From positions 264,567 through 328,566 of the forward strand of contig BGKB01000064.1 of NCBI GenBank assembly GCA_003116975.1: a stretch of DNA of 64,000 nucleotides. The letters run 5' to 3'. The notes below the pieces were generated by a model. It did not search any database, was not told the DNA's origin, and saw only the letters and a list, made by a program, of their open reading frames with translations. The DNA is from Aurantiochytrium sp. KH105 (lineage: Eukaryota; Sar; Bigyra; Thraustochytrida; Thraustochytriidae). Made by a program: the position numbers and the translations under genes. Below, in pieces: positions 4,945-56,130 of this stretch; within the stretch, counting starts at the first letter, position 1; every line of letters begins with the position of its first letter.

Positions 4945-7716
4945 TTAGTACAGCGCGGCGTCGAGAGCCCGCTGCATCGAGGCGTTGGCATCGCCACCGT
5001 CCCGCGCAGGAAAGGGAAAAGGCTCGCCGGTAATCTTCTCGTACAACATGATGTAGCGACGCGAGAGCTCGGCGACGAGATGAGCAGGGGCCTCAGGAAG
5101 TACCTCGTCCTTGTAAGGGTCGCAGCGCTCTGTGTACCAGAGACGCACAAACTCCTTATCGATGTGCTGTGGGGACCGGCCAGCTTCGACATTGGCACGA
5201 TGCGTCTTGTCATCGCCCACCCAGTATCGCGAGCAGTCCGGCGTGTGGATTTCGTCAATGAGAAGAATCTCGCCAGTTTCAAGGTCACGACCAAACTCGT
5301 ACTTGGTGTCGACGAGGATGAGACCATGCTCGCTAGCCACCTTTTGGCCAAAGGCAAAGAGTGCCTGGGCCTTTTCGTGGCAAAAGTCCCAGTCTTCCTT
5401 GCTCATCCAGCCATCACGCACAATGGTGTCGGCAGAAATGAGCTCATCGTGCTCGTCGCTCTTGGTCGTAGGCGTGCACAGGTTCTTCTCGAGCTTCTCG
5501 TTCTTACGCAGACCGTCTGGAAGGGAGTGTCCGCAGTACTCGCGCACGCCCTTATTGTAGTGCGTCCACATGGAGGTACCCGAGCTTCCCGCAATGTACC
5601 CGCGCATGACAAACTCAATGGGAAAGGTCTTGCAGCGGCGCGCAAGAGTCAGGTTCGGATGCAGCGGGTTCGCCGAAGAGTTCGAGGCGTGCAGCTGGTT
5701 CTTGATGATGTGCTCCGTCTTGGAGAACCACCACAGCGAAACGAGGTTGAGCACGGCACCCTTGAAAGGAATACGGGCAAGAGGCCTGTCAAAGGCCGTC
5801 AGGCGGTCCGTGGTGACGAGGACCACGTTGCGGCCGTCGTCGTAGCGATCACGGACCTTGCCAACGTACTTGGCCACCTCGGTCTGGCCCTCGCAAGGCG
5901 TGAGCTTGAGATCCGTGGCATCGACTGTGCAGTTGATGTTGGCGCGAATGCGGGGCAGGTAGAGGTGCGTCTTGTCCTTGTTCGTATACTCGCTGAGATA
6001 CTGCTCGTACTTGACGTTCTCAAGGTGCGCCGCCTTCTCGTGCACGGAATCGCGCTGGTCCGCGTGGTAAGCATCGAGCTCGCCGCGGAGACGCGCGCCC
6101 ATGGCGCCCTCTGAGGCAGCCAACATGCGCACGGCCAAGAGGCCGGCATTCATCGAGTTGCCGATGGCGACCGTGGCCACGGGGACGCCGCGGGGCATCT
6201 GCACAATGGAGAGGAGAGAATCCTGACCATTGAGGGTCGAGGTCTTGACCGGAACGCCAATGACCGGAAGCGGCGTGAGCGCCGCAACCATGCCGGGCAG
6301 GTGCGCGGCACCGCCAGCGCCAGCCACAATTACGCGGATTCCGCGGCCCTGGGCCGCCTTGGCGTACTCGTACATGCGGTCGGGCGTGCGGTGCGCAGAG
6401 ACCACAGAGAGTTCAAAGGGGACGCGAAACTGCGTGAGCATATCAGCGCAGGCGCGCATCGTGGGCAGATCCGAGTCGCTGCCCATGATGATGCCAACAA
6501 CGGGACTGGCCGCAGCGGCGCCGTCCTTTCCGCCCATTGTCTCAACGTCAGTTTCGTCGAGAGGCTCGCCAAGCTGCACGAGACGGCGGCGCAGCTCGGG
6601 CATGTCGGGCGCGGTGACGGTGATGTGTCCAAGCTTGCGACCGGGGCGCGAATCCTTGCCATACCAGTGGACCTTGGCGCCCGGAACGGTAAGAGCAGGG
6701 CGCAAGGCCTCGAGGGTTTCCTCTTCCGAGGCGGCGCCAAGGATGTTGATCATGGCGGCCGCGCCAACGCGAAGGCTCGGATCGCCGAGGGGCAGCCCAG
6801 AGACGGCGCGAAGATGCTGCTCGAACTGACTGGTCACGCACGCCTCAATGGTCAGGTGGCCCGAGTTGTGGGGACGCGGGGCCATCTCGTTGTACAGCAC
6901 GCGGTCGCCGCCCATCCAGAACATTTCGATGGCGAAAACACCGGCGCCCTCGATGGCACGCACGGCGCACTCTGCGACGCGCTGGGCCTCGATACGCGCA
7001 CTTTCGGGGAGTGGGAAAGACGGCGGGACCACAACGACACGGCAAATGTTGTCGGCTTGGCGGGTTTCGACGACGTCGTAGCAAGAGGTATTGCCCTTGC
7101 GGTCGCGCGCCACGATGCACGCGAGCTCGGCCTTGAAGGGGGCCCAGCGCTCCAGGTAGACACCACCAGCCTCGACAGCCTTGCCAAGGGACTGGAGGGC
7201 CGCTTCAATGCCGTCGGCAGACTGAATGACCGCGTTGCCTTTGCCATCATAGGCCATGCACCGACTCTTGAGCATCACGGGGAAGCCGCCAAGACGCTCC
7301 TCCGTGGCTTCGCGGATGGCACTCACCGTGGGCTCTACCTTTTCGTAGTCGCCGATGGGGACTCCGCGCTTCGCCATGACATCCTTTTGCACGGCCTTGT
7401 CGGCGATGATGCGCAGAGCAGATGGGGCCGGGTGTACGGGGCGGCCCTGCTCGGCCAGCTTTTCGAGCCCGTCAACGTTAACGTGTTCGATTTCCACGGT
7501 GGTCACGTCGCCCTCGAGGTTCACGACGTTGTCAAAGTCGGTAAAGCTTCCCTCCACGACCCTGCACACCGGCGCGGCGGAGCTCTTCTGGCCCGCCGGG
7601 TCCAGGCACACGATGTCGAGGCCAAGCCGCGCTCCGTCGAGCGCCATCATGCGGCCCAGCTGCCCGCCGCCCAGCACGCTCACGGTGCGGGCCACGCCGT
7701 CCAGTCGGTTGGCCAT
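4945..7716 (-). CDS. Trifunctional purine enzyme PurK-PurE-PurC
   Basis: The 923-residue protein joins three consecutive activities of de novo purine synthesis in one chain. Residues 10-390 are PurK-type N5-CAIR synthetase (ATP-grasp): GGGQLGRMM nucleotide-binding loop, EIEHVN, and [12 protein letters not shown]. Residues 406-560 are PurE-type mutase, with GSDSDLPTM and SAHRTPDRM at the active site and [12 protein letters not shown]. Residues 600-910 are PurC-type SAICAR synthetase, with [18 protein letters not shown] and RGYIAGS. Fungi have PurK-PurE (ADE2) with a separate ADE1; animals have PurC-PurE (PAICS) and no PurK. All three domains look complete. The start at 7716 (MANRLDG) is chosen because the PurK Rossmann strand follows at once; the in-frame extension upstream is Arg/Glu-rich leader. 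No targeting peptide is evident, so a cytosolic location is inferred. Confidence 0.95.
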
Positions 7717-8354
7717 CGTGCCTTTTTCTCCAAGTTCTCTCCTCTCCGCCGCCTGCGCTCGCTCCTCCTCTCCTCCTCGCTCTGCGCGCTCTCTCCCGCG
7801 CCCGGCGCGTCTCGAGTCTGTCAGTCGCTTCGAGGCTGGATCCAACAACTGCATCCAACGGGTGGCTCCGGGGCACCGTTTCGCCGTCATCGCCTGTAGT
7901 CAAAAGCCAGAGTGCGCGCACCAGCTGCACCTGCACCTGCAACTGATAGGATAGTGTGCCTGGCTGAGGCTGCAGACAAGCAAGCCTACATGTGCATGTT
8001 GCACGAGTAGGAGCCAGAATGTGTGCAGTGCAGGCAGTGTATACAAAATGGAGCTTGGCAAAGACGAAGACCGAATTAAACATCGGGAAAGGGGGGGGGG
8101 GGGTGGTCCTTATTTGATGTTGGTGGCGTGGCGGTGGAGGTGATGAAGTTTGTCGCAGGTATAGAGCCCAAGCGCGAGAGACCATCAGGAAAAGAACAAA
8201 GTTTTTTCGGGGTGTTTTCTTGTTTGCTTGTCTATGTGTTTGTCTTTTTTGTTTGTTTGCTTATTTGTTTGTATGTTTGTTTGCTCGGGGACTTACCAGC
8301 GCAATCGATAGGACCCCCCATTTAAAAAAAAAAAAATCGAGGTGATAAGCCTGA
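7717..8354. other. Purine gene leader and 3' end of the exchanger gene
   Basis: No gene. It holds the pyrimidine-rich leader (as read on +) of the minus-strand purine gene, a run of 13 G at 8091-8103, a TTTG-type T/G-rich tract at 8218-8285 and a 12-13 A run near 8325. Confidence 0.55.
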
Positions 8355-20063: not shown

Positions 20064-23000
20064 ATGGCGCCCAACGAAAAGGCGGCCAAGACCCCGACCC
20101 CTCCGGGCGCAAGGGCCAAGACGTCGGAGGAGGAGGCAGAGGAAGACGGGGACGCCTTTCGCGAGTTTGTGGACGTGGGCGAGGCAACAGACGATCGCAA
20201 GACACAAGATGCGTTGCCCGCGGAAAAGGCCTTTGAGAGACTTCGCGCTGGCGTGGTCGGCACGCTCGACCCCGTGGACACGCCCTTTGGCGTGAAGCCG
20301 CTCGTGTACGCAGACTGGACTGCGAGCGGTCGCGCTTTTGGACCCATCGAAACCTATGTGCGCGAAAAGGTGTACCCGTTTTACGCCAATACGCACACGT
20401 CCTCGTCAATTACGGGATTGCAGTCGACTTGTTTCCGCGCTGAAGCGCGGCAAATCATCCAGCAGGCCGTCAATGCCAACACACGGACTGACGTCGTCCT
20501 TTTCGCGGGAACAGGCGCTACGGGCGCTGTAAACAAGCTCGTAAGCGTGCTCGGTCTCGACGTCCCGCTCCGGGCCGACGAAGTCTCTCGCCCGCGCCCC
20601 GTCGTCTTTGTCGGGCCCTTTGAGCACCATAGCAACCTTTTGCCTTGGCGCGAGTCAAGCGCAGAAGTTGTCTGCGTGCCCGAACGCCAGGATGGGCTTG
20701 GGATTGACCGGGACGCCTTGGCAGAGCTCTTGCGAACGTACGCGGACCGCCCTCTCTTGGTCGGCGCTTTTTCGGCTGGGTCGAACGTCTCTGGCGTCCT
20801 CGAGGATGTCGATCGCATTTCTGCGCTCCTGCACCGCCACGGGGCCCTCGCGTGCTGGGACTATGCTGCGGCTGGACCTTATGCGCGCATCGACATGAAC
20901 CCCGTTCTTGCGGGTGAGGACCCCGATCGTCCCTTTGCGTACAAGGACGCAGTCTTTCTCTCCACGCACAAGTTTGTGGGAGGCATTAATACTCCGGGTG
21001 TCCTGGTTGCCAAAAAGAAGCTCTTTGGCAATGCCGTACCTGGAACGGGTAGTGTCGGTGGCGGCACGGTTTACTTTGTGCGCGAGGACGGCCACAGATA
21101 TCTCTCGAACCGCGTCGAGCGGGAGGAAGGGGGCACCCCAGATGTGGTGGGCGCCATTCGCGCGGGCCTTGCTTTCCAGCTCAAACAGAGCGTGGGCTGG
21201 GCGAATATCGAGGCCCGTGACAAGGTGATTGGTCGCAAAATCGCGGCCAAGCTCGGTTCGGAGCCCAAGCTGGTCCTGCTCGGTCCCAAGTGGGGCGACG
21301 CGGAAAGTAGCCGGCTGCCCATCGTGTCTTTCCTGGTTCGTCACGGTGCCCGCTTCTTGCATTACAATTTTGTGTCTGCAGTTCTCAACGACGTCTTTGG
21401 AATTCAGACGCGAGGCGGATGCATGTGCGCCGGACTTTACGCGCAGCGTCTTTTGGGCATGTCTCGCGAGTCTGTCGAAGCCATCGAGGACGAGCTCTTG
21501 CGAAACCCCAAGCACTCGGAGTATCTGCGCCCAGGCTTTAGCCGTTTGAGTCTCGCCTATTTTGCGAGCGACGAAGAGCTCGACTACGTCCTCGACGCAG
21601 TGTGCGCTGTGGCGCAGCTGGGCTGGAAACTTTTGCCGCAGTATCGTTTCAACACGCGGACCGGTGAATGGAAGCACAAATCGCGTTTCACCAAGTTTCC
21701 GGGGCGCCTTTGGCTCGGCGACGCCAATCTCTTGGGCGCGACGCCCTCGGAACCGGAGAACGAGGATCGTGCTCGGCCCGACTCTTTTGCGTTTCCTGAT
21801 CTCCTACAGCAAGGCATTCAACAGATGGACGCCGCCGCAGAAGAGTCGGCCAAAGAGACGCTTGGAGACCAGACGCAGCTCTTTACGCCCGAGGCTGCGC
21901 CGCTCCGGTGGTTTGCCGTGCCTTCAGAGGTTCATGCAGAGCTCAGCGCTGGCAGCAACAAGTGGGCCGCAGCTTCCACGGAGGCGCGCGCCTCGGAGGG
22001 GAAAGAAGGAGAAGAAGACAAATCTGCGGTCACTTCGAATCCGGTGACCGGGCCTTTGGACCCCTTTAAGTATTGGGCGATGGTGCGCGAGAGCATGCCA
22101 GTAGCACCTGCACTGACTGCGTCGGATGAATCAGATAATGCAGCAGACCGCGCGCGTAAGCGTGGGCCCGAGGCCAAGGAAGAGCCCGCGAAGCGAGCCA
22201 AAGCGAAGACGGAAAAGTCCTCAACTGTGGTGGTGTGCGAAGACAACTCGTGCTTTCGCGTGCGCAAGCGTGACAAGTACCCACTCAGGACGGCGGAGGT
22301 AATTCGTAGCGATCAAGCGGCGCAGAATCTTGCACAACCGCAAGCAGATGCCGCGGTGGTGGCGCCGAAAGCGCCGCCCAAGGCACTCCGTCCTCGGATT
22401 CCCAAGGGCATCTTGAAGAATGTCGGCAAGGCATTGGCACAATGGGAAATGATCCAAGAAGGGGATCGACTCTTGCTTGGACTGTCTGGCGGCAAGGATT
22501 CGCTGGCCCTTTTGCACGTCTTGCTGCACGTGCAAGCCAAGTCGCCCGTCAAGTTCGAACTCGCTGCCTGCACCGTGGACCCGATGACTGAGGCTTTTGA
22601 TCCGAGCCCTCTGATCCCGTATATGGCCTCGCTAGGCGTAACGTACCACTACTTGAAGGAGCCAATATTTGATCGTGCCAAGTCTGGCTCGTTGCAAGGA
22701 ACATCGATCTGTAGCTTTTGCGCCCGTATGAAGCGCGGAGCGCTTTACGGCTGTGCCCGGGAACACGGCTACAACAAGCTTGTGCTTGCGCAGCACTTGG
22801 ACGATTCGGCAGAGACGCTCATGATGGGTCTTTTCCATAATGGCATTGCCCGCGCCATGATGGCGAATTACGAGGAGAAGAAGGGCGACGTCCGTGTAAT
22901 TCGTCCGTTGGCATACGTGCGTGAGCATGAGACCAAGGCGTTTTCTTATGCGGCCAAGCTCCCTGTGATTAACGAGAATTGTCCGGCGTGCTTTGAGGCA

Positions 23001-23279
23001 CCGCAGGAACGCCAGCGCATCAAGCGAATGCTTGCCAAGGAGGAGGCCACGTGCCCACGGATGTTTCACAGTTTGCGCCGTGCGCTCTTGCCGCTCATGG
23101 ACGCAGACCTTCTCAACGAGATGTCAGCCATCACGAGTCGAAGGACGGATCTGGCAAATATGGAGCAGCGGCGTGTCCGGGCTGCGGACCACAAGCAGCG
23201 GAAGCAAGAGAAAGAGCAGGCGAAGGACAAGGAGAAGGAAAAGGAGCACGAGGAGGTCGCCGCAGAAATCAAGGCTTAG
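20064..23279 (+). CDS. Cysteine-desulfurase-like / TtcA-like PP-loop thiolase fusion
   Basis: The 1071-residue protein joins two sulfur-handling enzymes. Residues about 50-570 form a class V aminotransferase fold: EHHSNLLPW, CWDYAAAGPYA, the PLP-lysine motif STHKFVGG (about residue 301) and a Cys loop TRGGCMCAGLYAQRLLG (about 451) where desulfurases carry the persulfide cysteine. After a charged linker with a nuclear-signal-like RKR/KRAK stretch, residues about 785-1020 form an N-type ATP pyrophosphatase of the TtcA/Ncs6 superfamily: LLLGLSGGKDS (PP-loop, about 807), CSFCARMKRGALY, QHLDDSAETL and NCPACFEAPQERQR, with Cys pairs that could hold an Fe-S cluster. TtcA makes 2-thiocytidine in tRNA. 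The fusion would let the desulfurase hand sulfur to the thiolase in cis; this is inference. The start at 20064 has the context ACCATGG. A Lys/Glu-rich tail ends the protein. Confidence 0.9.
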   Translation: MAPNEKAAKTPTPPGARAKTSEEEAEEDGDAFREFVDVGEATDDRKTQDALPAEKAFERLRAGVVGTLDPVDTPFGVKPLVYADWTASGRAFGPIETYVREKVYPFYANTHTSSSITGLQSTCFRAEARQIIQQAVNANTRTDVVLFAGTGATGAVNKLVSVLGLDVPLRADEVSRPRPVVFVGPFEHHSNLLPWRESSAEVVCVPERQDGLGIDRDALAELLRTYADRPLLVGAFSAGSNVSGVLEDVDRISALLHRHGALACWDYAAAGPYARIDMNPVLAGEDPDRPFAYKDAVFLSTHKFVGGINTPGVLVAKKKLFGNAVPGTGSVGGGTVYFVREDGHRYLSNRVEREEGGTPDVVGAIRAGLAFQLKQSVGWANIEARDKVIGRKIAAKLGSEPKLVLLGPKWGDAESSRLPIVSFLVRHGARFLHYNFVSAVLNDVFGIQTRGGCMCAGLYAQRLLGMSRESVEAIEDELLRNPKHSEYLRPGFSRLSLAYFASDEELDYVLDAVCAVAQLGWKLLPQYRFNTRTGEWKHKSRFTKFPGRLWLGDANLLGATPSEPENEDRARPDSFAFPDLLQQGIQQMDAAAEESAKETLGDQTQLFTPEAAPLRWFAVPSEVHAELSAGSNKWAAASTEARASEGKEGEEDKSAVTSNPVTGPLDPFKYWAMVRESMPVAPALTASDESDNAADRARKRGPEAKEEPAKRAKAKTEKSSTVVVCEDNSCFRVRKRDKYPLRTAEVIRSDQAAQNLAQPQADAAVVAPKAPPKALRPRIPKGILKNVGKALAQWEMIQEGDRLLLGLSGGKDSLALLHVLLHVQAKSPVKFELAACTVDPMTEAFDPSPLIPYMASLGVTYHYLKEPIFDRAKSGSLQGTSICSFCARMKRGALYGCAREHGYNKLVLAQHLDDSAETLMMGLFHNGIARAMMANYEEKKGDVRVIRPLAYVREHETKAFSYAAKLPVINENCPACFEAPQERQRIKRMLAKEEATCPRMFHSLRRALLPLMDADLLNEMSAITSRRTDLANMEQRRVRAADHKQRKQEKEQAKDKEKEKEHEEVAAEIKA

Positions 23280-44907: not shown

Positions 44908-46275
44908 ATGCAGCACTACGAGCCTCAAGTGATCCGACAGCAGCGGCCTGTGCTCGTCAACACGCACGTTGTTGGCGACAAACGCGTGCAGCTCTGGCAC
45001 GAGCAGCGTCCCGCCTTCGATGGCCATACCACCTCGCGCGACGTCTACCACGCGCATCCTCTTGAAGCCGGCAAGCGTGGCGTCGCGCCCCCAGGCAACT
45101 TGTGCACCGACAAGAACAGCAAGTTCTACGGCTCGACCACGAGCAAGGAGTCCTACATTGAGCATCGAATTGAGGCTCCCGCGCGCAGCTGCACGGAAGA
45201 GAAATTCCAACCGAGCAACGCACGCTTCTATGGAACCACAACTTCGGCAGAAGCCTACATCCCTCATAGTGTAGGGCCCGCCAAATCGCTTGCGCCTGTG
45301 CCTGCAGAACGGTCAAACTTGCCTTTTTACGGAACAACCACTTCGCGAGAAACCTACCAACCCCATGCAGCGACCGCGCCGTCCGTGCCGAGCTCATCGG
45401 CGCGCGATACACACATTTCCGTCGGGACTGGCTCGCAATTTTACGGCGATACGACTGCGAAGAATGCATACGGTGCCCCGGGGGCTCACGACCCGACCAA
45501 ACCGATTGTACCTGCAGGCAAATCTCTCGAGGGCGTGCTCTCGACAAACGATGGAACGCGCTTTCAGGGTGAGTCCACGTCGCGAGGAACTTTTGTTGCT
45601 CATGACATCCAGCCTCGCGTCCTTCCGGCGTCCATTGCGTGGGAACCCAACAAGGCCTACTTTTACGGAACCACGACCAACGCTGACTCGTACCCAGCGC
45701 ACCTCGTGCAGCCCATGGAACGCAATCGCGGCCCCTCGCATTCTGCCGTCACTAATGCTCCATTCCAGAGCGCCACGGAATCCCGCGAACGTTTCATGGC
45801 GCCTGGCAACGTCGAGCCTGTGCGAGCCACCCACCCGGTGGGCAACCTCCACGTCGACCATGCGCACTTCCAGGGTACTTCGACGTCGCAAGACACCTTT
45901 CGAGGCTGGCAACTTCCTGTGCAGAGGCTTCCCGTTGGACTCGAGACCGTGAATGATGTTTTCCATGTAATGATTCCGGAGCGCCAGCGTCTTCCTGCCG
46001 AGCATGCACAGGTCTTTACGACTGTCACTGACGGCCAGACTTCTGTTCAGATCACCGTTCGTCAGGGAATCTCGGGACGGGCCTCTGAGAACACCGTGCT
46101 CGCCTCCTTTGAGCTTGTAGGCATCGATCCCGCGGCGTGTGGCTCGCCGCAGATCCTCGTCACCTTCTCCATCAACGAGCATTCGCGTCTCCACATTGAC
46201 GCTGTCGACAAAATCACCGGCAAGGCCCAGCACATTGCCATTGACCGCGACATCAACGCTTCTGCGTTTAACTAA
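44908..46275 (+). CDS. SAXO/MAP6-like repeat protein fused to an Hsp70 substrate-binding domain
   Basis: The 455-residue product has two parts. Residues 37-334 hold nine copies of a 14-residue motif of the form F.G.TTSR..Y..H, at residues 37, 73, 107, 140, 178, 219, 252, 286 and 321, spaced 33-41 residues apart. This resembles the microtubule-binding modules of SAXO/MAP6 (STOP) proteins, which line ciliary doublets. Residues 342-448 match the beta-sandwich substrate-binding domain of Hsp70: PVGLETVNDVFHVMIP, HAQVFTTVTDGQTSVQI, ASFELVGIDPA, SPQILVTFSIN and IDAVDKITGKA follow the Hsp70 order exactly. There is no ATPase domain and no helical lid. The Hsp70 match is strong; the SAXO assignment is by pattern. 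A flagellar microtubule-bound chaperone-like role is inference. It is in tandem with the kinesin gene. Confidence 0.85.
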   Translation: MQHYEPQVIRQQRPVLVNTHVVGDKRVQLWHEQRPAFDGHTTSRDVYHAHPLEAGKRGVAPPGNLCTDKNSKFYGSTTSKESYIEHRIEAPARSCTEEKFQPSNARFYGTTTSAEAYIPHSVGPAKSLAPVPAERSNLPFYGTTTSRETYQPHAATAPSVPSSSARDTHISVGTGSQFYGDTTAKNAYGAPGAHDPTKPIVPAGKSLEGVLSTNDGTRFQGESTSRGTFVAHDIQPRVLPASIAWEPNKAYFYGTTTNADSYPAHLVQPMERNRGPSHSAVTNAPFQSATESRERFMAPGNVEPVRATHPVGNLHVDHAHFQGTSTSQDTFRGWQLPVQRLPVGLETVNDVFHVMIPERQRLPAEHAQVFTTVTDGQTSVQITVRQGISGRASENTVLASFELVGIDPAACGSPQILVTFSINEHSRLHIDAVDKITGKAQHIAIDRDINASAFN

Positions 46276-46779: not shown

Positions 46780-49700
46780 ATGTTTATTAACAGGCTGGCC
46801 TTTGGGTCCTTCAAAACGGGCCTCGAGGACAACCTGCGACGCGCCGTGGAAAGCATGGAAAACGTCGTCAAAAACAACTTTGGTGACGAGGACGAAGAGG
46901 CTTCCGACCACTATCGGCAGATTGAAGTGTACAAGCAGCTTCTCGTCGAGATGGAGCTCGGCCAGCTCAAGGTCCTACGCGAATATCAAAAGCTCTTCGC
47001 GGAGAAAGAAGCCAGGATCGCCGACCTCACCTCAAAGCAAGACATCGACAGCAACAACATCGATAACAACACCACCAACCCTGTAGCGTCCGACAATAAA
47101 AAAGGTAGCGCTGATCATGAGAGTGGCGAAGGTGACACAGACGAGACCGATCGGACGCGTCAGGAAGAGGCCAAGGATGACGCCGAGTGGGTCCGCGACT
47201 GGGAGGCGCAAATGAAGACCAATATTTCCGAGAAAATGGACGCCCTCGTGCAGGCTCGCGAACACCGGGAAACCGCACGCATTCTCCGTGAACAGCTCGA
47301 CTCTCTCAAGGACCACGTGCGTGCCCAAGACGCCAAGGTTGATCAACTCGAACGTCTCGAAAACTTGCGCAAGGACAAGGAGCAAGGCGATGAAAACGCC
47401 TTGGACACGCTGGCGCTAGAGTACTCAAAGCTCTCACAAGAGGCGGAAGAGGCAAGTCAGCGTGCGAACGAAACGGCACGCGAACGCGACGAACTTCGCA
47501 AACAGTGCGAGAGACAGCGTGAACAGCTCACTGTTCTGGTACAGACTGGCGCTGGAGGTCCTGATGCATCTGCTGCGGCAGCAGCACTCGCAGAGAATTC
47601 TACTGCACTCGAGAATATGGCGCGTATGGAGTCTAAGCTGGAAGATCGTGAGCGCGAACTTGAGCAGCTCCGCGCAAGACTTGCCGAGTACACGACATCG
47701 GAGGCCAAGGCTAAGGAGGACATTGCGCAGGAACGAGATGCAAATACCAAGGCCCTCGAAGCGCAGCTTGAAACTCTGCGCATTAGTGAAATTAAACTAC
47801 AAGAGCAGCTCGCGAGCGCCCAAGCCATCTCGGAGGCGAACCAAGCCGAGGATCAGACCGAGGAAATGCGCACCCTCCGCGAAACCTTGGAGAATAAGAC
47901 AACAGAGATTGCCTCGCTCAAGGCGTTGCAGGAGAAACTTGAAGGGGAAGCAGAGTCCTTGCGCGAGAAGTCGAGCACTCTGCAAAAAGAACTCGATACG
48001 GCAGGGGTAAATGCGGCAAGCTCGGTAGAGGAGCAACAGAAGGAAATCTCGTCTCTCCGTCAAGATCTCGACGCCAAGACGGCTGCGCTCCAAAAAGCAG
48101 AATGTGCGCGAAAGGAGATTGAAGATGATTTCAAAGCGCGAATTGCGACACTTCAGGAAAGAGAGACTGACTTGGTCCAAAAAATCTCCGCGCTCGAAGA
48201 AAAGTCTCTGGAAATGCAACAGGCTTTCGAGGCAAAAGAAACGCAACTCGAGGCCCTTCGCGGCGAAATGAAGACTTTGCGAGAGTCCTTCGAGTCTCAA
48301 GTGGAGCGTCTCGAATCCGAGGTGCAATCTGCGCGCGCAAGTGAGACAGAAGCAAATGAACGGCTGGGCGCTGCCGAAAAGCACGCCAACGCACTCCGCG
48401 ACGAAGTTGCTTCGCGAGAAGCTGCTCTTGAAGAGAAATCAAGGGCACTTGACGAGTCCGAACAGGCCATGGCAACTGCTCGCGAGAGCCATGAGACCGC
48501 TATGACCTCGGTTCAAGCAAAGCTTCAACAGAGCGTGCAGCAGCTCAAGGAGTCGAGCACGGCGCTCGCCGACCTCGAGAAACTTAAGGAAGAAATGGAA
48601 CGCGAGCACGAGGAGGAGCGCGAAGAGGCAGCAAAGATTCGTGCTGAGATCGAGGACACCTTTCACTCCACGGTGGAACGTCTCGAGGAGGAAATGGAGC
48701 GGCGAGAGCAAGAGTCGCTGGCCGGCTTGGCTCAATTCAAACAAGAGTTCGAAGAGCGAATTGCCAGTATTAAAGCGGAGCGCGATGCAGCGCTGGCCGC
48801 GACGGAGGAGGTGAAAAGACAGGCAGAGGCTGCCCAAGCAGCAGCGCTTGCTGCACTTGAAGATGAGCTCATGGGTCAGGTCGACGAGTACCGGCAACGG
48901 TATATCCGCGAGAGCTCGCTTCGAAAGCGCGTTCACAACGAACTCATGGACCTCAAGGGCAACATTCGCGTCTATTGTCGCGTACGTCCGGTGTTACCTA
49001 TGGAGCGCAAAAGGTCTTCCACAGATGCTCTCGATGTCACGTCCTTCCCTGTCGAGAACGAGATTGAAATTACACGCGATGAGGCATCGACGAACCGATT
49101 TGAGTTCGACGCCGTCTTTGCACAAAAGTCAACGCAAGAGCAAGTCTTTGAGGACATAAGTCCGCTTGTCACGAGCACACTCGATGGCTACGATGTTTGC
49201 ATCTTTGCATATGGGCAGACGGGCAGTGGTAAGACGTTCACCATGGAGGGCAGCCGCGAGAACCCAGGTGTGAATCTTCGCGCTCTGCAGCGTCTCTTTC
49301 AGCTGCGGCACGATCGTCGCGAAGAGGAGACGTTTGCGTTTTCTGTGAGCATTTTGGAAATTTACAATGAGTCTGTGCGGGATCTCTTGGCACGAAGCGA
49401 TGCGGGGCCCGGGCCGCGCGCCAAGCTCGATCTTCGTGTCGCTAGTAATGGCACGGTCTTTGTGCAGGACTTGCAGTCTGTGCAAGTCGACTGTATGGAG
49501 GATGTGGAGGTGGCCATGCGCAGGGCTCAGGGCAACCGAGCCGTGGGGGCACACAGTATGAACGAGCACTCTTCGCGGTCGCACCTCGTGTTTATGCTGA
49601 GTATTGAAGGTCGCAATCACATTACGGGTCTCAAGACGCGATCAAAGCTGAATCTCATCGATCTTGCAGGCAGCGAACGGGTGTCCAAGACGGATGCCTC

Positions 49701-50163
49701 GGGGGACCGCCTCAAGGAAGCACAAAACATCAACAAGAGTCTCTCGGCCCTGGGCGATGTCATCGCTGCCCTTGGAGATGCCAAGGCGCGGCAGCAGCAC
49801 GTCCCCTATCGGAACTCGAAGCTGACACACCTTTTGCAGAATTCGCTTGGGGGCGGATCCAAGGTTGCCATGTTTGTGAACATTTCCCCGGTGCAGATCA
49901 ATGCGCCAGAGTCGATTTGCTCTCTTAATTTTGCGGCGCGATGCCGCAAAGTGCAACTTGGTCAGGCCAAGCGCAAGGGCGGTGACTCTGCAGAGCTGAA
50001 AAAGTATAAGCGCATTGTAGAGGATCTTCGCGCCCAGATTGCAGGAAGCCAGACACGCTCGCTCAGCGCCTCCACGTCTTCGTTGTCATCGCTCACGGGC
50101 TCTTCAGCAGGTACTCCCCGCAAGTCTCGCAAACTCGTAACGCCTGCGTCTGCGAGCAAGTAA
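46780..50163 (+). CDS. Kinesin-14, C-terminal motor
   Basis: The 1127-residue protein has an N-terminal globular segment (1-70), a long coiled coil rich in Glu/Gln/Lys/Arg (about 110-720) and a motor domain at the C-terminus (about 726-1057). The motor directly follows the neck sequence KRVHNELMDLKGNIRVYCRVRP, which is typical of minus-end-directed kinesin-14. P-loop GQTGSGKT (about 811), switch I NEHSSRSH, switch II DLAGSE and the NINKSLSALGDVI and YRNSKLTHLL helices are intact. The tail after the motor is Ser-rich and basic. It probably acts in spindle organisation or other microtubule transport; a flagellar role is possible given its neighbour. The first ATG, in context ACCATGT, is used. 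Confidence 0.95.
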   Translation: MFINRLAFGSFKTGLEDNLRRAVESMENVVKNNFGDEDEEASDHYRQIEVYKQLLVEMELGQLKVLREYQKLFAEKEARIADLTSKQDIDSNNIDNNTTNPVASDNKKGSADHESGEGDTDETDRTRQEEAKDDAEWVRDWEAQMKTNISEKMDALVQAREHRETARILREQLDSLKDHVRAQDAKVDQLERLENLRKDKEQGDENALDTLALEYSKLSQEAEEASQRANETARERDELRKQCERQREQLTVLVQTGAGGPDASAAAAALAENSTALENMARMESKLEDRERELEQLRARLAEYTTSEAKAKEDIAQERDANTKALEAQLETLRISEIKLQEQLASAQAISEANQAEDQTEEMRTLRETLENKTTEIASLKALQEKLEGEAESLREKSSTLQKELDTAGVNAASSVEEQQKEISSLRQDLDAKTAALQKAECARKEIEDDFKARIATLQERETDLVQKISALEEKSLEMQQAFEAKETQLEALRGEMKTLRESFESQVERLESEVQSARASETEANERLGAAEKHANALRDEVASREAALEEKSRALDESEQAMATARESHETAMTSVQAKLQQSVQQLKESSTALADLEKLKEEMEREHEEEREEAAKIRAEIEDTFHSTVERLEEEMERREQESLAGLAQFKQEFEERIASIKAERDAALAATEEVKRQAEAAQAAALAALEDELMGQVDEYRQRYIRESSLRKRVHNELMDLKGNIRVYCRVRPVLPMERKRSSTDALDVTSFPVENEIEITRDEASTNRFEFDAVFAQKSTQEQVFEDISPLVTSTLDGYDVCIFAYGQTGSGKTFTMEGSRENPGVNLRALQRLFQLRHDRREEETFAFSVSILEIYNESVRDLLARSDAGPGPRAKLDLRVASNGTVFVQDLQSVQVDCMEDVEVAMRRAQGNRAVGAHSMNEHSSRSHLVFMLSIEGRNHITGLKTRSKLNLIDLAGSERVSKTDASGDRLKEAQNINKSLSALGDVIAALGDAKARQQHVPYRNSKLTHLLQNSLGGGSKVAMFVNISPVQINAPESICSLNFAARCRKVQLGQAKRKGGDSAELKKYKRIVEDLRAQIAGSQTRSLSASTSSLSSLTGSSAGTPRKSRKLVTPASASK

Positions 50164-53046: not shown

Positions 53047-56000
53047 ATGGCGCGAGATGACGACGCAACGCCAAAGATATCACCGTCGCCTGCGACGGTG
53101 CGTTGCCGCGAGACGAAACCCATGCAATCGAGACAAGGCCGCGAGACGACCGGCTTCTGCCTCGAGGTGCAACGGAAGACTGATTGTCTCGATACCGACG
53201 TTCCCAGCATCAGCATTGTGCGAAGCGAGGCAGATTTGGCTGCTTTTCACCGCCAACTCCTGAGTTTACAAGCCGTCGAGAGCGAGGACAATGCCAAAGA
53301 CATCGACACCTCCCTCGACTTTCCCGGGTCCAGCAAAAGACGAAGCGAACGTCTAGGTCGTTCATTTCCCTTGGCTGGCGCCATCGTAGTTTCGGTATGC
53401 GCGTTGGCGGATGCGGCGCTCTTGCATCGAGGTGATTTCGATGTGCTCCGCGGAACAAAGCAAGCCGCACTCGTCGCCGCGCTGATCTTAGCGCAAATGT
53501 TTGCGGCAGTGCTCATAGATCGATGGGTCCGCACGCCACCGTGTCTTGACAGCAGCGATTGCAGCGCAATTGAATCCTATCTACAAAGAGCACTTGCCTT
53601 GCGCGGCAAACAGACACAGGATGCCGTGCAGGCCCTCTTGGAGCCGCCGTTGCGCCCGGATTGGCCCGGTCGCATGGGCCCCATCGATCTTGTGATTCAT
53701 GACCTGCCGCACCCACGCAGCCAAACGGAGTGGTGGTACTTTAATGCACACCTGGAGTGTCAACCTCGGGAGGGAGGTCCGCGCAGCGCGCCGCCGCGCA
53801 AATTTAGCGTTTTTGTGTGCTTTTTCCGTTTTTTCAAGTATTACGATCGTCGGTCCAAGACACGATACTTTAGTCATGCGCTCACTTGGGCCGTGAGCGA
53901 CGTGGAGAACTCCAAGTACTATTCTGACGTTTTGCTCGAGCGCGACGCGCCTCGCAGTATCCTTAAAGCGCTAGAGCAGGGTCACGGGGTTCAGGATCGA
54001 ATTTTGCAGCGAGCCTTGCGGGAGATCCTCGAAAAGGACAGTGTTCCTTTGCCCGATCGTCTCTTGTCTCGCGATGCCGTCGTAGAAACGGTCGAGGAGA
54101 CGGGCGAGCTCCGCCTCAATTATGAGGGCGCAAGTCTAGAAAAGTCCAAGGATGGAGTCTATCGCGTGCGTGCCTCGCATTACAAGCTGCCCTGCGCGCT
54201 GGATCTGAGCTTTTCGCCGGAAAAAGCGCCCATTCGACATGGCGACCATGGTGTCGTCAAGGGCCGGGAGGGCGACGACATGTTTTACTACTGCATCTCG
54301 CGTTGCAAGGTCGAAGGTTCTGTGAGTGTCCCGCGGCCCGCTGAACGCGGTGCGGCCGTAGATGTCGAGGCGAAGGATCATCTCAAGGTGCAGAAAGGCA
54401 GCGGCTGGTTCGATCACGAGTTCGGAGGCGCGCCAGAGGAGGAGCGCCTCGGAAAGGACACAGACGCGTCATCTGCCAAGGAAGGCAAGTCAAGTCAAGC
54501 GGGTTCAAGCGAGTCCTCTGAAGACCCTTCCGAGCCAGAGCTCGAAGGCAAGGGTTGCACAGAACGCATCGGTGAGCATCATACAGGGCGTTACGCCTGG
54601 AATTGGCTCGCAGCCCAGCTTGACGACGGAACGGAGGTTTCTGCTGCACTGTTAGTGAATCCTGTGGCAGGCGAGGTCATGGAGGTCAAGGCCATCATTG
54701 TGGACGCTCAAGGCGAGCGAACGCAGTTTGACGGCTCGCACGGGGTGCTCTTTACTGCTGACTCGGCGCCGGACGCAGTCTGGACCTCGGTGCGAACCTT
54801 TGTCTCGTACCCAGTCAAATACCGACTGTGCGTTCCTGGCGCAGGTCTCGATCTTGCGGTAGAGGCTAGTTTTGCAGACCAAGAGTTTATGACCCTCATC
54901 GCGAAGCCCGCCTTTTGGGAAGGCAGGTGCGAGGTGAGCGGCACACGATGCGGACACGCAGTCCGTGGCACAGCATTTGTGGAGCGTAATGGTTTTAGCG
55001 AAGGCGAGACGGTGAATCGCTTCTTCAAAAACGTTGGCAAGAAAGTACGAGCAAGCGTTCGCGCCATGTACCCGTTGCAACCTACGTTTGAGGAATCTCT
55101 TGAGCTCGTTGCCACCAAAGACACACCGCACCATGTGCGTGGTGTCCCTCTGGACGTTCTCGCTCAGACGTTGATCGCCCCGGTTCGTGCTGTGGCCGAC
55201 CGCGGCGGCAAGTCATGGCGATCCTATGGCGCGCTGGCATGCGTAGACTGTGTAGGAGGCGACTCGCGCGACTTTGTCGACTGGGTGGCCATGCCCGAGT
55301 TTCTGCACGTGGGTTCGCTCATTGTCGACGATATCCAGGATGGGTCCGAGACGCGTCGTGGTGGACCAGCCGCTCACATGGAGTATGGCGTGCCGCTCTG
55401 CATCAACGCCGGTACGGCGGCTTACTTTCAGTGCGAGCAAATGATTCGCGCGCCGGGGCTTACTCCTGAGGAGCTGAACCGGTGCTATGCGCTCTACTTT
55501 TCCGCGCTCCGAGGCGGGCACGCTGGACAAGCGCTCGACATTCACGGCCTAGACTATATGATGGACGCGGTTGTGGCGTCAGGGGACGCAGCTCTGCTCG
55601 AAGAGCGCATTCTCGGAATCCACATGCTCAAGACGGCAGTACCCGCGGGCACCTTGGCACGCATGGGGGCTCTCGTGGGCAAGGGCTCTGAAGAGCAGGT
55701 AGAGGCCATGGGGCGTTACTTTGAAAGTGTGGGTGTAGCCTTTCAGATCATGGACGACGTCCTGAATCTGCGCGGGCTCTTCGCCAACGAGACGGACAAG
55801 CTCAAACCGGGGACCTCGCTCAAGCGTCTGGGCGAGGACATCGTCGACGGCAAGGTCACCTTCCCGGTTGCCAAGGCCATGGGAGTCTTGGACTCGCAGG
55901 AGGAGCGACGCGCGCTCTGGGACAGCATTCGGGCCAAGCCGCAGGATCAAGGCAAAGTGGATGCGATCATCGCACAGCTCGAGGCGCTCGGCGCCATCGA

Positions 56001-56130
56001 GGCCTGCGTTCGACAAGCCGAGAACGAGGTCGAGCAGGCGTGGGACAAGCTTGATCGCGTCATTCCAGACTCTTTTCCAAAGATGATGCTGCGCGCCTTT
56101 GGCTGGTTCGTCATTGACAGAATCTGCTAA
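53047..56130 (+). CDS. CrtC/AttH lipocalin-like domain fused to a polyprenyl diphosphate synthase
   Basis: The 1027-residue protein joins two unrelated domains. Two hydrophobic segments (about 107-127 and 138-157) suggest a membrane anchor. Residues about 215-655 match the CrtC/AttH lipocalin-like family (hydroxyneurosporene synthase relatives): TEWWYFNAHL, GSGWFDHEFG and YAWNWLAAQLDDGTEV are its signature strands, interrupted by an acidic loop. Residues about 690-1020 are a trans-isoprenyl diphosphate synthase: DRGGKSWRSY, the first Asp-rich motif DDIQD at 761-765 followed by SETRRGGPAAH, the KT pair in HMLKTAVP, the second motif FQIMDDVLNL at 899-908 and DGKVTFP. Motif two is DDxxN, as in many geranylgeranyl synthases. 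The product is probably GGPP or similar; coupling to carotenoid or terpenoid hydration is inference. The start has context ATCATGG. Confidence 0.88.
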   Translation: MARDDDATPKISPSPATVRCRETKPMQSRQGRETTGFCLEVQRKTDCLDTDVPSISIVRSEADLAAFHRQLLSLQAVESEDNAKDIDTSLDFPGSSKRRSERLGRSFPLAGAIVVSVCALADAALLHRGDFDVLRGTKQAALVAALILAQMFAAVLIDRWVRTPPCLDSSDCSAIESYLQRALALRGKQTQDAVQALLEPPLRPDWPGRMGPIDLVIHDLPHPRSQTEWWYFNAHLECQPREGGPRSAPPRKFSVFVCFFRFFKYYDRRSKTRYFSHALTWAVSDVENSKYYSDVLLERDAPRSILKALEQGHGVQDRILQRALREILEKDSVPLPDRLLSRDAVVETVEETGELRLNYEGASLEKSKDGVYRVRASHYKLPCALDLSFSPEKAPIRHGDHGVVKGREGDDMFYYCISRCKVEGSVSVPRPAERGAAVDVEAKDHLKVQKGSGWFDHEFGGAPEEERLGKDTDASSAKEGKSSQAGSSESSEDPSEPELEGKGCTERIGEHHTGRYAWNWLAAQLDDGTEVSAALLVNPVAGEVMEVKAIIVDAQGERTQFDGSHGVLFTADSAPDAVWTSVRTFVSYPVKYRLCVPGAGLDLAVEASFADQEFMTLIAKPAFWEGRCEVSGTRCGHAVRGTAFVERNGFSEGETVNRFFKNVGKKVRASVRAMYPLQPTFEESLELVATKDTPHHVRGVPLDVLAQTLIAPVRAVADRGGKSWRSYGALACVDCVGGDSRDFVDWVAMPEFLHVGSLIVDDIQDGSETRRGGPAAHMEYGVPLCINAGTAAYFQCEQMIRAPGLTPEELNRCYALYFSALRGGHAGQALDIHGLDYMMDAVVASGDAALLEERILGIHMLKTAVPAGTLARMGALVGKGSEEQVEAMGRYFESVGVAFQIMDDVLNLRGLFANETDKLKPGTSLKRLGEDIVDGKVTFPVAKAMGVLDSQEERRALWDSIRAKPQDQGKVDAIIAQLEALGAIEACVRQAENEVEQAWDKLDRVIPDSFPKMMLRAFGWFVIDRIC

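Follow-up and report, generated by a model that had tools for sequence, protein, structure and literature searches.

An Mn-repeat protein with an appended Hsp70 substrate-binding domain in Aurantiochytrium sp. KH105

The fusion gene and its two parts

A 64,000-nucleotide stretch of the thraustochytrid Aurantiochytrium sp. KH105 (assembly GCA_003116975.1, contig BGKB01000064.1, positions 264,567 to 328,566 of the forward strand; hereafter the window, to which coordinates refer) contains a gene that joins two parts otherwise known from separate proteins. A single plus-strand frame of 455 residues (44908-46275) encodes nine Mn-type repeats followed by the beta substrate-binding domain of Hsp70 (SBD-beta), with coordinates, frame and length exactly as given in a preliminary description of this DNA (Table 1). 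The fusion is real. Only six residues lie between the ninth Mn motif and the Pfam match to the substrate-binding domain (SBD), in one frame and in both copies of the gene found in the assembly, which rules out an intron or separate genes between the parts, and the G+C fraction at third codon positions (GC3) is nearly equal in the repeats (0.659) and the SBD (0.661).

The preliminary description claimed nine F.G.TTSR..Y..H motifs spaced 33-41 residues apart, and both number and spacing were borne out by a motif scan and by shuffling. Successive sites are separated by 36, 34, 33, 38, 41, 33, 34 and 35 residues (mean 35.5), and a strict pattern, F-x-[GS]-x-[TSA][TSE]-x4-[YF], defined after the sites had been seen, finds all nine of them and at most one site per shuffle in 10,000 shuffles of residues 1-337. 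The motif itself stands as a consensus but is not uniform, since the closing histidine is present at six of the nine sites. The minimal Mn signature [TS][TS]x4[YF] given in extracts of PMC10973386 (the literature is cited here throughout from extracts of the papers) is matched by eight sites, against a shuffle mean of 0.88 and maximum of 6, the failing one being the degenerate site 8 at residue 286. A 15-residue motif followed by 18-20 inter-repeat residues, the published rule (PMC3280300), amounts to a repeat period of about 33-35 residues; five of the eight intervals have this length and the others measure 36, 38 and 41, in agreement with the rule.

The kinship to SAXO/MAP6 proteins that had been proposed for the repeats is supported by the Pfam family SAXO1-2 (PF05217), which matches residues 32-161 (E 9e-8, 32.0 bits against a cut-off of 26.5); in a genome-wide search the best stretch reaches 25.3 bits, or 26.6 with its frame neighbours, and passes the cut-off narrowly. 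A PDB sequence search with the repeats returned three distinct matches (E up to 10), namely SAXO1 (8ou0, the best), a DMIP1/STOP family protein and a Flagellar associated protein. The N-terminal cysteine cluster (motif 1) that defines SAXO proteins strictly, and that Map6-1 and Map6d1 also lack (PMC3280300), was not found, cysteines being present only at residues 66, 95 and 411. By its sequence features the fusion protein is thus related to the Mn-repeat MAP6/SAXO proteins and is not a SAXO in the strict sense. It resembles SAXO1/SAXO2, MAP6 and TbSAXO in its repeated Mn motif, in spacing and in an above-cut-off SAXO1-2 match, but differs from them in lacking the cysteine cluster and in adding a C-terminal Hsp70 SBD-beta.

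The preliminary description placed an Hsp70 SBD beta-sandwich at residues 342-448. Pfam HSP70 (PF00012) matches residues 338-450 (E 1.3e-23, 83.5 bits against a cut-off of 20.6) and covers no more of the profile than the beta-sandwich (positions 389-501 of 599). PDB sequence matches support the domain, and its AlphaFold2 model matches the DnaK SBD-beta fold (Foldseek/VIA-align); a full-length model made without an alignment was unusable (mean predicted local distance difference test score 32.5). The SBD is identical to DnaK at 46 of 104 residues and to the mitochondrial-type Hsp70 of the same genome at 47 of 105.

The claimed absence of a nucleotide-binding (ATPase) domain (NBD) and of a lid held up against separate hidden Markov models (HMMs) for NBD, SBD-beta and lid, built from the 41 of 80 DnaK loci in which a full-length frame was found. 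The SBD model finds the fusion frame at 4.4e-29, the sole significant match of the three models in the window, whereas those for the ATPase and the lid reach a best E of 1.9 each over its 1,326 six-frame segments of at least 25 amino acids, giving no sign of a hidden ATPase or lid exon there. Three Hsp70 signature patterns have no match in the six frames of the window. The interdomain linker, with its conserved leucines and D393, was not found either, the positions of DnaK 390-394 being occupied by W, Q, L, P and V, and all seven NCBIfam DnaK/HscA equivalogs match the SBD stretch only, at best with 93.1 bits against a whole-protein cut-off of 648. With ATPase, linker and lid all searched for without success, the protein is, as judged from its sequence, not an Hsp70: it shares a predicted fold with the SBD-beta of DnaK and HSPA9 but is without their NBD, linker and lid, and its ATPase-facing positions are eroded. 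In a tree the SBD falls within the bacterial DnaKs, close to those of mitochondria; its branch is very long (2.15) and support at the nearest nodes is 22-56; no conclusion on its origin is drawn because of this long branch and low support, and because the bacterial rows (23 of 46 were taken in) had all been fetched by similarity to the query.

Table 1. Features of the fusion gene (window coordinates).
Feature	Position	Strand	Basis or remark
Open reading frame, Mn-repeat array fused to Hsp70 SBD-beta, 455 residues	44908..46275	+	second copy with same frame
N-terminal segment, residues 1-36, before Mn motif 1	44908..45015	+	no cysteine
Mn motif 1 (residue 37)	45016..45048	+	motif scan
Mn motif 2 (residue 73)	45124..45156	+	motif scan
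Mn motif 3 (residue 107)	45226..45258	+	motif scan
Mn motif 4 (residue 140)	45325..45357	+	motif scan
Mn motif 5 (residue 178)	45439..45471	+	motif scan
Mn motif 6 (residue 219)	45562..45594	+	motif scan
Mn motif 7 (residue 252)	45661..45693	+	motif scan
Mn motif 8, degenerate (residue 286)	45763..45795	+	motif scan
Mn motif 9 (residue 321)	45868..45900	+	motif scan
Junction, residues 332-337, where Hsp70 has its interdomain linker	45901..45918	+	P337 at the DnaK D393 position
Hsp70 SBD-beta, residues 338-450	45919..46257	+	Pfam HSP70; PDB sequence matches; AlphaFold2 model with Foldseek/VIA-align
Final 5 residues and stop	46258..46275	+	frame ends where the Hsp70 lid would start

Conservation within the domain and across the genome

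Positions conserved in at least 85% of 46 bacterial DnaKs were divided by DnaK numbering into substrate groove, NBD-facing surface and rest, the lists being taken partly from PMC8215388 and PMC4595643 and partly from general background on Hsp70. These two sources name an arch (M404/A429), the pocket residue V436, I438, clamps (D481, K414, N415), signal residues (V440, L484) and a latch (D431/R467). The fusion SBD keeps 7 of 10 groove positions and 26 of 32 of the rest (33 of 42 together) but only 6 of 19 that face the NBD (Fisher p 0.001, NBD-facing against all else). Among residues common to DnaK, HSPA9 and HSPA1A, it keeps 8 of 9 in the groove, 6 of 18 facing the NBD and 23 of 33 elsewhere. 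V436 of the pocket is retained, as is I438, while at the arch loop G405 and G406 have become N and D; I401 and A429 also carry substitutions. The genome's own mitochondrial-type Hsp70 keeps every position (10/10, 19/19 and 32/32 for groove, NBD-facing and rest), as does HSPA9; the counts in the same order are 8, 18 and 25 for its cytosolic (EEVD) Hsp70, 9, 14 and 28 for its BiP (HDEL) and 8, 18 and 28 for HSPA1A. A divergent Hsp70 of 562 residues, which has an ATPase domain, is evenly eroded (5/10, 9/19 and 12/28). In the aligned sequences, NBD-facing positions are thus preferentially lost from the fusion SBD and the substrate groove is largely kept.

That 562-residue protein (C207:37774-39294 and C202:24277-25797) has a PF00012 match only up to position 495; it appears to consist of an ATPase and an SBD-beta without a lid, and ends in a hydrophobic, membrane-anchor-like tail.

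Across the assembly (76.0 Mb, 367 contigs), PF00012 has 22 matches, which we paired into 11, and only two of them are confined to SBD-beta (profile 389-502): the fusion gene and a copy on contig C295 (29161-30525) with the same uninterrupted frame across the join. The same two places are the only matches of PF05217 and the only ones recovered with the repeats alone, a search read exon by exon that would miss divergent Mn proteins. The only recognisable SAXO in this genome sequence is therefore the fused one. Four BLAST pieces, one containing the gene, show the surroundings of the two copies to be 91-96% identical, and the copies are probably alleles. Hsp70, dynein and DM10 matches are paired on different contigs, as if the assembly keeps both haplotypes.

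The copies differ at 23 codons, 21 synonymously and two nonsynonymously, and both replacements (S136P and N283D) are in the repeat half, the 12 differences in the SBD all being synonymous. Over the whole frame, nonsynonymous divergence (dN) is 0.0019 and synonymous divergence (dS) 0.0653; the repeats give 0.0026 and 0.0371 and the SBD 0 and 0.1518, all estimates from one sequence pair without a significance test. This synonymous excess speaks strongly against decay or a spurious frame, and in favour of an SBD that is kept as protein.

The organism probably has motile flagella, since its genome encodes axonemal gene families (40 Dynein_heavy, 16 DM10 and 4 Radial_spoke matches). Tektin had no match in a six-frame search that ignored introns, and SPACA9 had none in the genome either, although its control likewise matched nowhere. 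Two scans of viral contigs gave no relative of the fusion. For Phytophthora, the extracts of PMC3280300 report no SAXO orthologue.

A proposed docking socket and its rivals

In FAP363, SPM1 and SAXO, Mn motifs form short helices at the alpha-beta intradimer site of the luminal microtubule wall with 8-nm spacing, one per tubulin dimer, and small globular partners are placed on top (PMC8144581, PMC9564825, PMC10973386). MAP6d1 depends on its Mn motifs for both stabilising and building doublets (PMC12228683). In Toxoplasma, SPM1 is described as recruiting TrxL1/2, which have a thioredoxin fold but no catalytic CXXC, and in human cilia SPACA9 is located on Mn motifs. The preliminary description had the fusion protein anchored to microtubules, which these relatives refine to a location probably in the microtubule lumen.

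The reading that we favour, at about even chances, is that a MAP6/SAXO-related microtubule protein with Mn repeats carries its own module for docking a peptide of one partner independently of ATP. By analogy with its relatives, the repeats would follow a protofilament inside flagellar microtubules, on the luminal wall, with each tubulin dimer taking up roughly one motif. The C-terminal beta-sandwich would form a luminal knob beside them, gripping an extended peptide of one fixed partner, either another inner protein or a neighbouring copy. The kept groove suggests such a grip, and the missing NBD and lid suggest that it is not cycled; the hold would come from local concentration, without a release cycle. 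The arrangement would resemble the pairs of SPM1 and TrxL1/2 and of human SAXO and SPACA9 in having an Mn array with an adjoining small globular part at a luminal site (here by analogy), but their globular partners are separate proteins of other folds, whereas here an Hsp70 SBD is part of one fused chain. The one-client Hsp70 HscA offers a precedent for an Hsp70 SBD dedicated to one peptide; unlike the fusion, it has an NBD and a lid, and M at the position of V436, where the fusion has V.

Published affinities bear on the grip from both sides. A lid-truncated human SBD binds with a dissociation constant (KD) of 1.3 mM and a lidless DnaK SBD exchanges fast (association and dissociation rate constants of 2e4 per M per s and 12.5 per s), while a DnaK SBD with a mutated lid contact retains high affinity (all PMC6017645). 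Millimolar KD and fast exchange suit a stationary docking site aided by avidity better than they suit a holder of clients. The fusion SBD may hold a peptide, as its groove suggests, either weakly or firmly to judge from these conflicting values.

Several points weigh against a docking socket. Lid-truncated SBDs can bind weakly, and the high affinity of the lid-contact mutant speaks against the argument from a weak grip (PMC6017645). The erosion counts come from one protein and leave out the Hsp110-like and KDEL-ended relatives of the same genome, which have no SBD alignment row. Groove against NBD-facing positions alone gives a p of only 0.06. Both HSPA1A and HSPA9 have R for K414 and N for D481, so these positions also vary in complete Hsp70s. 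The fusion retains V440 and L484, the residues that signal substrate binding to the NBD, so that what was lost is docking contacts and not every allosteric residue. Nine motifs at 8 nm would span 72 nm, no multiple of the 48-nm doublet repeat. Finally, a scan of the repeats for an Hsp70-type self-binding segment, scored on our own rough scale, found nothing above chance: 1,622 of 2,000 shuffles equal or exceed the score of the best candidate, the N-terminal RPVLVN segment, and head-to-tail self-binding through it was dropped.

The docking socket is nevertheless preferred over two other functions for the domain. It could be an inert structural knob, a fold that only braces the lattice and whose groove binds nothing, for which the CXXC-less TrxL1/2 are a precedent and with which the changes at the arch loop and at I401 and A429 would agree; the unchanged V436 and I438 and the preference for groove over NBD-facing residues at the shared positions speak against it, and we consider it possible but doubtful. 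The function put forward in the preliminary description was that of an anchored passive peptide holder, perhaps for axoneme assembly. Read as a chaperone on microtubules that prevents axonemal proteins, still unfolded, from aggregating while flagella are built, it appears less likely still. It could draw on the largely kept groove, on the high affinity of the lid-contact mutant (PMC6017645) and on the HSP70A of the Chlamydomonas central apparatus C1b arm, which resembles the fusion as an Hsp70 built into the axoneme but is a separate, complete protein in a central-pair projection and not an SBD on Mn repeats. However, the absent lid and ATPase point to weak binding or fast exchange (PMC6017645), the central apparatus of mouse sperm is described as being without HSP70A, so that an axonemal Hsp70 is not general, and nothing in the present analysis links the protein to unfolded clients.

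An artefact, whether a wrong gene model, an assembly chimera or a decaying copy, is very improbable. The fusion is known from one genome and as DNA sequence only, but its frame is uninterrupted across the join on two contigs with closely similar surroundings, GC3 is equal in both parts and codon differences are overwhelmingly synonymous, without exception so in the SBD.

A more specific version of the docking socket is put forward tentatively, and at less than even chances: the sole recognisable SAXO of this organism would carry an ATP-free Hsp70 clamp, its ATPase surface lost and its groove under selection, as a permanent peptide socket, placed within flagellar microtubules, for plugging one specific inner protein into their lattice.

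Neighbouring genes and significance

Upstream of the fusion gene, between 44282 and 44817, are three short tandem arrays (AGAA x24, GCCTT x9 and GCTCG x16). Downstream, 504 bases from it and on the same strand, starts a kinesin (46780-50163) with a C-terminal motor and a Microtub_bd domain, which we take from this layout to be kinesin-14-like. Three other frames of the window also combine several domains: PurK-type ATP-grasp, AIR carboxylase and SAICAR synthetase, three parts of purine synthesis, at 4945-7890 (minus strand); a class-V aminotransferase and a PP-loop ATPase domain at 20064-23279; and CrtC/lipocalin domains with a polyprenyl synthetase at 53047-56130, possibly a carotenoid-pathway fusion.

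Both parts of the fusion protein are already known, and their union is without a published description in the titles or abstract starts of the open-licence PubMed Central matches listed. If the favoured reading is true, an Hsp70 substrate domain can do without its engine and persist as a fixed socket for peptides, and different lineages place unrelated globular folds (thioredoxin-like, SPACA9 and Hsp70 SBD) on Mn repeats. For both questions the fusion offers a test case that is small and can be expressed.
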